Assembly: GCF_017357865.1 (NCBI RefSeq)
Contig: NZ_CP060096.1
Location: 558,001-622,000, forward strand
Reading direction: 5' to 3'
Length of the DNA stretch: 64,000 nucleotides
Source of the DNA: Aceticella autotrophica
Lineage (GTDB): Bacteria > Bacillota > Thermoanaerobacteria > Thermoanaerobacterales > Thermoanaerobacteraceae
Under the pieces are notes generated by a model. It saw only the letters and a program-made list of their open reading frames with translations. It made no database searches and was not told the origin of the DNA. Below are positions 46,011 through 48,365 of the stretch, in pieces (positions within the stretch are counted from its first letter, which is position 1; each line of letters begins with the position of its first letter). A program made the translations under genes and the position numbers.

Positions 46011-47312
<1,302 letters not shown>

Positions 47313-47323
47313 TAAAATAGAAG

Positions 47324-47367
47324 GCAAGAAAAGTCTTTCGGTTTTTACTTTTCTTGCTTTTTATTTT
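47324..47367 (+). terminator. Terminator of the glycolytic cluster
   Basis: GCAAGAAAAGT at 47324-47334 pairs with ACTTTTCTTGC at 47347-47357, then a T-run. Confidence 0.88.
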
Positions 47368-47407
47368 AAAATAAATAAAAATTTTTTGCTAAAAATTAAA
47401 AATGGTA

Positions 47408-47436
47408 TTGACAAGATAAGATATATGTTATATAAT
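47408..47436 (+). promoter_or_regulatory. Consensus promoter of the AhpD-like gene
   Basis: TTGACA 47408-47413, 17 bp, TATAAT 47431-47436. Confidence 0.88.
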
Positions 47437-47442
47437 TTAGAC

Positions 47443-47460
47443 ATACCCCCCATAGGAATA
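47443..47460. promoter_or_regulatory. CsoR-like operator, first copy
   Basis: ATACCCCCCATAGGAATA at the expected transcription start. C-rich/G-rich pseudo-palindromes beginning ATACCC are bound by CsoR/CstR-family copper or sulfide sensors. An inverted near-copy is at 47530-47549. Confidence 0.5.
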
Positions 47461-47529
47461 CGGATTTCAAGAAATATTTAATAAAAAATTTTGCAAACTT
47501 TAAAGAATAAATATCTGATATTTTTAAAA

Positions 47530-47549
47530 AATACTCTATGGGGGTTTAT
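47530..47549. promoter_or_regulatory. CsoR-like operator, inverted second copy
   Basis: The reverse complement, AAACCCCCATAGAGTATT, matches the first site in the opposite direction. In RNA the two would also form a long hairpin (ACCCCCCATAG with CTATGGGGGT) directly before the ribosome site. Confidence 0.48.
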
Positions 47550-47575
47550 TAAAAAATAAAAAAGGAGTGTTTTTA

Positions 47576-47932
47576 ATGGCAAACAAACCAGAAGAATTAT
47601 TAAATGATTTAACAAAGGGACTTGGTAATTTAGCAGAGAAGGATCATAATTTCAATAATGGTTTTATGAGATTGATGGGCAGTGTATTCAGAGAAGGTGC
47701 TTTATCAGTTAAAGAAAAAGAGTTAATAGGAATTGCAGTATGCATATATGTAAGATGCGAGTATTGCATTGCTCAGCATGTTTATAAAGCATTGGAAGCC
47801 GGTGCTACACCCGAACAGATAATAGAAGCCGCTGAAGTTGGAGTTGCTTTTGGCGGAGGTCCATCAGTTGCATATCTTGTAACATCACTAATGGATGCAT
47901 TAAATACATTTGCGCCTAAATTCAATAAATAA
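47576..47932 (+). CDS. Carboxymuconolactone-decarboxylase family (AhpD-like) protein
   Basis: 118 aa, soluble helical protein. The redox pair is in VRCEYCIAQHVYKALEAGAT (CxxC with following His), the AhpD-type active site, preceded by LSVKEKELIGIAV. Such proteins act as disulfide reductants in peroxide defence or related thiol chemistry; activity here is inferred. ATG 47576 follows AAAGGAG. Possible CsoR/CstR control suggests a metal or sulfur-species trigger. Confidence 0.9.
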   Translation: MANKPEELLNDLTKGLGNLAEKDHNFNNGFMRLMGSVFREGALSVKEKELIGIAVCIYVRCEYCIAQHVYKALEAGATPEQIIEAAEVGVAFGGGPSVAYLVTSLMDALNTFAPKFNK

Positions 47933-47962: not shown

Positions 47963-48002
47963 AATCTAAAATAAAGTGAGGAAACTCACTTTATTTTAGA
48001 TT
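47963..48002 (+). terminator. Perfect 18-bp hairpin
   Basis: AATCTAAAATAAAGTGAG, GAAA tetraloop, then the full complement. The T-run is weak, but length and position after the AhpD-like gene favour termination. Confidence 0.7.
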
Positions 48003-48125: not shown

Positions 48126-48365
48126 ATGTTGAAAATAATTGTGCTTATAATTCATGTTTTAGTCAGCTTATTTTTAATGGCTGTCATATTGTTACAGGAG
48201 GGCAAAAGTGCCGGAATTTCAGGTGTCATATCAGGTGGTGCAGAAACTTTTTTTGGGAAAAATAAAGCCCGCACAATGGAGGGTACCTTAGAGAGACTTA
48301 CGACAATAAGTGCTGTGGTTTTTATAATAACCTCTTTAGTGTTAGCGTTATTGATGGGAAAATAA
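48126..48365 (+). CDS. secG: Preprotein translocase subunit SecG
   Basis: 79 aa with two membrane helices (about 3-22 and 54-75). The connecting loop VILLQEGKSAGISGVISGGA followed by ETFFGKNKARTMEG is the SecG signature. It assists the SecYEG channel. The ribosome site CGGAGG lies 9-10 bases before ATG. Confidence 0.96.
   Translation: MLKIIVLIIHVLVSLFLMAVILLQEGKSAGISGVISGGAETFFGKNKARTMEGTLERLTTISAVVFIITSLVLALLMGK

Follow-up and report, generated by a model that had tools for sequence, protein, structure and literature searches.

What controls the AhpD-like gene of Aceticella autotrophica that lies in the 64-kb stretch of DNA analysed here (the window), and in particular whether a repressor of the CsoR family does so, is the question raised by the leader of this gene. 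The preliminary description had pointed to two oppositely directed pseudo-palindromes, one at the transcription start and one just before the ribosome site, and had read them as CsoR-type operators for a regulator encoded elsewhere or, alternatively, as the arms of a long RNA hairpin. Both pseudo-palindromes are found where they were said to be (Table 1), and we think it quite likely that a CsoR-family repressor controls the gene at these two putative operators, whichever inducer it answers to. The sequence itself establishes the two sites, the promoter, the motif shared with other genes and how seldom that motif stands behind a perfect promoter; from the comparisons set out below we infer binding at site 1 and at site 2, repression, the choice of CsoR paralogue, the inducer and a role for site 2.

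The leader, its transcription unit and the gene product

The promoter of the AhpD-like gene is one of four in the window in which TTGACA-17-TATAAT has all 12 of the 12 consensus bases. Six intervening bases past its perfect -10 box, at the likely transcription start, site 1 begins, and it thereby overlaps the promoter or transcription start in the manner of type-2 CsoR operators; site 2 lies about 95 bases past the -10 box, clear of both promoter and transcription start, with 16 bases between its end and the GGAG of the ribosome site. The two sites are oppositely oriented with their centres 89 bp apart, and as a result of this orientation CCCCCATAG (47447-47455) is complementary to CTATGGGGG (47536-47544). 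The upstream gene, which by eye encodes enolase (eno), ends at 47312 and is followed by a hairpin that went unflagged in a consensus scan; this likely terminator would set the AhpD-like gene apart from the glycolytic operon. Downstream, the neighbouring frame (48126-48365, 79 aa) is SecG-like by eye. Given the hairpin and T-run upstream and the separate SecG-like frame downstream, the AhpD-like gene is probably a transcription unit of its own.

Table 1. Features of the AhpD-like gene and its surroundings, in window coordinates
Feature	Position	Strand	Details
Likely terminator after eno	47324-47357	+	inverted repeat, then T-run; wider repeat 47313-47368
Sigma-A-type promoter TTGACA-17-TATAAT	47408-47436	+	12/12 consensus bases
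Operator-like site 1	47443-47458	-	top strand ATACCCCCCATAGGAA, minus strand TTCCTATGGGGGGTAT; 1 mismatch to TACC-N6-GGGTAT
5' arm of possible RNA stem	47447-47455	+	CCCCCAUAG; pairing predicted
Operator-like site 2	47532-47547	+	TACTCTATGGGGGTTT; 2 mismatches to TACC-N6-GGGTAT
3' arm of possible RNA stem	47536-47544	+	CUAUGGGGG; pairing predicted
Ribosome site GGAG	47564-47567	+	read from sequence
AhpD/CMD-family gene, 118 aa	47576-47932	+	start codon ATG at 47576; PF02627 domain
Possible terminator, 18-pair A/T-rich hairpin	47963-48002		flagged on minus strand, where T-run sits

The identification of the product as AhpD-like holds. PF02627 matches it with 74.5 bits (E 6.6e-21) and TIGR00778, the AhpD core domain, with 46.9 bits against a cut-off of 27.8, the remaining NCBIfam models falling below their own cut-offs; the nearest solved chain by sequence is 5dik, named 'AhpD' (E 1.6e-12). 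The C-x-x-C-x-x-x-H motif and preceding Glu of AhpD-like members of the CMD family are present as E49, C61, C64 and H68. Lys48, Glu49, Cys61, Cys64 and His68 occur in 27 of 27 aligned sequences, query included, the 26 relatives having been chosen by a required Cys-Cys-His with Lys48 and Glu49 left free. Among distant relatives, an AhpD-like domain is, by eye, joined to the end of a lipoyl acyltransferase (E2)-like protein at five loci (L089, L093, L097, L098, L099), and at three others (L094, L096, L102) the AhpD-like gene stands directly behind an E2-like gene. Mycobacterial AhpD has a lipoamide-linked thiol role, and by analogy these fusions and adjacencies would fit such a role for the AhpD-like protein.

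The reference operator, the candidate regulator and its signal

The operator motif used here, TACC-N6-GGGTAT, was defined from other genes and independently of the two sites. The genome has two CsoR-family (PF02583) genes, as does each of the 20 family genomes searched, and both lie outside the window, in keeping with the earlier suggestion that no CsoR gene is nearby and that the regulator would act in trans. One of them (C1:1362887-1363120) has a thioredoxin gene (trxA) next to it and carries TACCTTATAGGGGTAT between a perfect promoter and the ribosome site. The leader of this trx-linked csoR contains TACC-N6-GGG, then GGAGG and ATG within 90 bases, in 20/20 family genomes, and a thioredoxin frame follows csoR in all 20, with one gene between in L053. 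A perfect match to the motif, TACCTATATAGGGTAT, stands behind a perfect promoter in the copA leader of the same genome, and all nine copA-operon leaders of the sister genus g3 have a perfect match as well, either TACCTATAGGGGGTAT (six loci) or TACCC(T/A)TAAGGGGTAT (three), each preceded, by eye, by TTGACA-17-TATAAT. Recurrence of the motif at these genes, here and in relatives, supports the reading of the two pseudo-palindromes as CsoR-type operators. Some variation is seen: in one related genus the second GTA is missing from every one of the ten csoR sites, which have GTT or GCT instead. In genus g2, the 1.4-1.5 kb ahead of copA contains no match at one mismatch or fewer at eight of nine loci; at the ninth, L212, a match lies about 1.4 kb away in apparently coding sequence, and one genome yielded no copA locus. 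A Tyr-bearing CsoR goes together in g2 (L058-L067; L208-L215, L219) with copA loci that have no nearby motif, the csoR leader retaining it.

We picture the leader as a pair of CsoR-type operators in inverted orientation on which a CsoR-family repressor encoded elsewhere would act in trans. Most likely this is the trxA-linked protein, which is favoured as the binder by the presence of the site in the leader of its own gene. On site 1 the repressor would cover the transcription start and block RNA polymerase, and site 2, near the ribosome site, may add binding, either as a roadblock or in a larger complex with site 1. Once the signal was taken up the repressor would let go, and the AhpD-like protein would be made along with CopA, CsoR and thioredoxin; copA, csoR and the AhpD-like gene are probably switched together. 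As the signal, copper is somewhat more likely than persulfide or a thiol oxidant, though not by much: copper is favoured because the genome's own copA leader carries the site, and thiol or persulfide sensing is kept in play because Tyr replaces a His ligand in the candidate regulator and thioredoxin is its neighbour.

The substitution emerges when the trx-linked CsoR (C1:1362887) is aligned to the copper repressor 4m1p, in which the ligands are Cys, His and Cys: the corresponding residues are Cys35, Tyr60 and Cys64, so that the C-H-C set of copper ligands is incomplete, and an extra Cys62 lies two residues before the last Cys (CxC). Tyr occupies the His-ligand position in 10/10 g2 sequences and His is kept in 9/9 from g3. 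A CstR persulfide sensor would have two reactive cysteines and no His ligand, respond to persulfide and lie near sulfur-detoxification genes; in the trx-linked CsoR the cysteines are present and the His is absent, and its neighbour is thioredoxin. With CstR and TTHA1953-type thiol-sensing relatives it has in common a CsoR-family protein of incomplete C-H-C and a thiol-redox neighbour gene; the TTHA1953 consensus TACNNTACNNNNGTANNGTA given in PMC10318464 differs, however, from the motif found here. The frames around the trx-linked csoR include no rhodanese or sulfide oxidoreductase recognisable by eye.

It is possible, if rather unlikely, that the same operators serve a CstR-like regulator whose cysteines sense persulfide or thiol oxidation, copper not being the main signal, and the odds of this reading overlap those of the best explanation. 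Besides the ligand residues of the site-bearing CsoR and the thioredoxin frame behind it throughout the family, it is favoured by the contrast between the Tyr genus g2, whose copA loci have no site close upstream, and the His genus g3, where all nine have one; by a weaker site, TACATATCCCGGGTAT, at a CoA-disulfide-reductase-like gene with a 10/12 promoter; and by the retention of C-H-C in all the putatively regulated CsoRs of gut Firmicutes covered by the sections of PMC4938975 at hand. Yet the genome's own copA leader retains a perfect site, a CxC arrangement could still bind Cu(I), and the second CsoR paralogue (L005:3890-4159), which retains C-H-C, could be the binder. The bases just upstream of this second paralogue show no such operator. 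Its gene lies near frames that read, by eye, as a cysteine desulfurase and ThiI.

More speculatively, and in our estimation improbable though worth stating, the CsoR with Tyr and the extra Cys may have become, or be becoming, a combined sensor of copper and of thiol or persulfide over a merged regulon of CopA, CsoR-thioredoxin, the AhpD-like protein via its inverted operator pair and perhaps the CoA-disulfide-reductase-like enzyme. In g2, whose CsoR shares this Tyr, copA has lost its operator, as though control by copper had passed elsewhere.

Match quality, position and folding of the leader

Control by a CsoR-family repressor at the two sites must also be weighed against coincidence. Over both strands of the window, one mismatch or fewer to TACC-N6-GGGTAT is found at a single place, site 1, and two mismatches at 27 places, among them site 2 and both sites read in reverse. 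Two separate sites occur in 1 of 1825 overlapping 139-bp window tiles, that of the AhpD-like leader, and dinucleotide shuffling of the leader produced two separate sites, one of them at one mismatch or fewer, 7 times in 20000. A 16-base matrix drawn from copA and csoR leaders places site 1 first (15.5) and site 2 second (14.2) among all 16-mers of the window on both strands, with the qualification that its training sites score 15.4 to 23.1, site 1 being barely above the lowest of them and site 2 below all; this matrix was built after a 20-base one, with the g3 copA sites added, one csoR 16-mer entered twice and the test sites excluded. In the earlier 20-base matrix, which scored core-flanking bases overlapping the csoR ribosome sites, site 1 ranks 5 and site 2 ranks 17, about what chance would give, the expectation at their scores being 3.5 and 16.6. 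Site 1 shares 14 of its 16 bases with the commoner g3 copA site, and site 2 shares 12 of 16 with the genome's own csoR site. The continuous G/C run is 6 bases in site 1 and 5 in site 2 (at least 4 characterise type-2 operators), the same motif stands at the genome's csoR and copA as expected for this type, and each site departs by one base from the TAC-X9-GTA halves, site 1 reading TTC-X9-GTA and site 2 TAC-X9-GTT. Considered as a bare inverted repeat the leader is less remarkable: of 1500 Markov resamples of it, 29 contain a repeat scoring as high, and so do 25 of the 913 overlapping tiles of the window.

Across the genome, matches at one mismatch or fewer number 118 (59+59), against 60+67 for a reversed control; the motif alone is common, so that sequence by itself is no proof of a site. 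Position behind a promoter discriminates better than motif sequence alone. Among the matches listed (100 of the 118 places; 107 read, 103 distinct), only those at copA, csoR-trxA and the AhpD-like gene stand behind a 12/12 promoter, the promoter-to-motif gap being 5 to 11 bases. The genome has six perfect matches, of which the copA and csoR ones are so placed and the other four are not behind a perfect promoter. Promoters of 11/12 overlap rather than precede the match at L154 (gap -12) and L165 (gap -2), and 10/12 promoters lie just ahead of it at L115 and L159. The L115 match (C1:179779-179794; L200:1780-1795) is the one at the CoA-disulfide-reductase-like gene, with a gap of 3, and this gene is a possible fourth member of the regulon. 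A one-mismatch match at C1:387238 was discounted as lying inside a long coding frame (alanine-racemase-like by eye). A first motif pattern was set aside, since it gave at least 81+83 matches at three mismatches against 161+145 in its control. At two mismatches it gave 7+7 against 14+16; since the pattern was modelled on site 2 and the csoR site, the two perfect matches to it are no evidence on their own.

Counting against CsoR control are the base by which each site is off, ranks near chance in the 20-base matrix, the commonness of the motif, the low scores of both sites beside the training sites of the 16-base matrix and, as set out below, the want of a close relative of the gene, homologue leaders free of the motif and an 89-bp spacing outside the published classes. 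The second and third of these would suit a chance occurrence of two C/G tracts downstream of a promoter that is strong but unregulated, which we nevertheless hold to be distinctly improbable in view of the shuffle and tile counts, a placement like that at copA and csoR, and the first and second ranks in the 16-base matrix. Least probable of all is that the leader works as RNA, its stem bringing the 5' end together with the stretch ahead of the ribosome site, thereby protecting the message or switching translation: the 9-bp stem has predicted pairing probabilities of 0.83-1.0 at 37-65 C when the transcript is taken to start at 47443, but the ribosome site falls outside it, the whole leader folds no better than its own shuffles (z -0.54), and in an Rfam search of the window no family reached its gathering score in the leader. 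The hairpin of the preliminary description is thus predicted to form but is less convincing as a working part; two inverted copies of one operator produce a complementary stem anyway, and we treat it as a by-product that is possibly stabilising.

Homologues and known CsoR systems

At E 1e-25 the 36 other genomes of the class gave no relative of the AhpD-like gene; the family does have weaker homologues, the best at 39-43% identity, and at E 1e-22 orthologues were found in 24 other genomes among 398 drawn from the phylum. Three orthologue loci came from genome_contigs, 68 plasmid records gave matches that were all under 60% identity, and viral contigs gave none. None of the 31 homologue leaders read (of 33 loci, L090 and L105 being left out) has the motif at one mismatch or fewer. 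Two-mismatch matches occur in three of them (L089, L103, L104), with no promoter found beside them, and a tblastn search (E 1e-3) of 29 orthologue loci, with flanks of about 1.5 to 3 kb either way, turned up no gene for CsoR, CopA or thioredoxin. By eye, the leaders at L085, L088, L091, L092 and L095 carry a different set of inverted repeats, related to one another and of the type TTGCTATACTAATAATTAGCATAGCAAC, and to judge from these repeats other regulators seem to serve those homologues. A palindrome in the leader of a sister-genus AhpD/CMD-related gene, GTACCCC-N8-GGGG(T)GGGTAT (L018, L019, L020, L022, L024), was not counted as a CsoR site, its TAC-to-GTA spacing being wider. Absence of the sites in relatives, which the preliminary description had named as telling against it, is borne out in part: it applies to the 31 homologue leaders of the AhpD-like gene, for which no close orthologue was found, and not to the motif, which is conserved at csoR and at the copA operon of one related genus. 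Control of the AhpD-like gene looks lineage-specific, in a genus represented by one genome.

The available text of PMC3902906 describes type-2 CsoR operators as G-tract pseudopalindromes, TAC-X9-GTA, that bind two tetramers, and reports that swapping the TAC and GTA halves abolished binding by the CsoR of S. lividans. The operators of copA or copZA and csoR treated there (S. lividans, B. subtilis and other Firmicutes) resemble the present sites in being 16-bp G-tract pseudopalindromes near TAC-X9-GTA, in their position at the transcription start and in having a regulator that acts in trans, which here is predicted. They differ in that here each site is one base off in one half and the target is an AhpD/CMD-family gene rather than copper export. 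Promoters with two high-scoring CsoR sites are likewise on record, the parts of PMC4938975 consulted giving dual sites for 93 of 221 csoR and 94 of 204 copA promoters of gut Firmicutes; the pair described here is inverted, however, and its 89 bp between centres falls outside the spacing classes published there (26, 36-38 and 51/56 bp). The dual sites given there belong to csoR, copA and a small number of HMA or membrane proteins, with no AhpD-type entry in Table 1 of that paper, and the titles and abstract openings of the papers listed on CsoR together with AhpD or carboxymuconolactone decarboxylase show no such target. Paired CsoR sites are therefore already published, and, as far as these excerpts extend, the 89-bp spacing and the AhpD-type target are outside those described.

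Control of the AhpD-like gene as proposed here would extend an already known type of regulation modestly. In a clostridial relative it would bring a protein of thiol-peroxidase type into the copper-repressor regulon, and the natural series of CsoR proteins with His, with Tyr, and with Tyr plus CxC may serve as a test of how such proteins can switch to another signal and still retain the operator they had.
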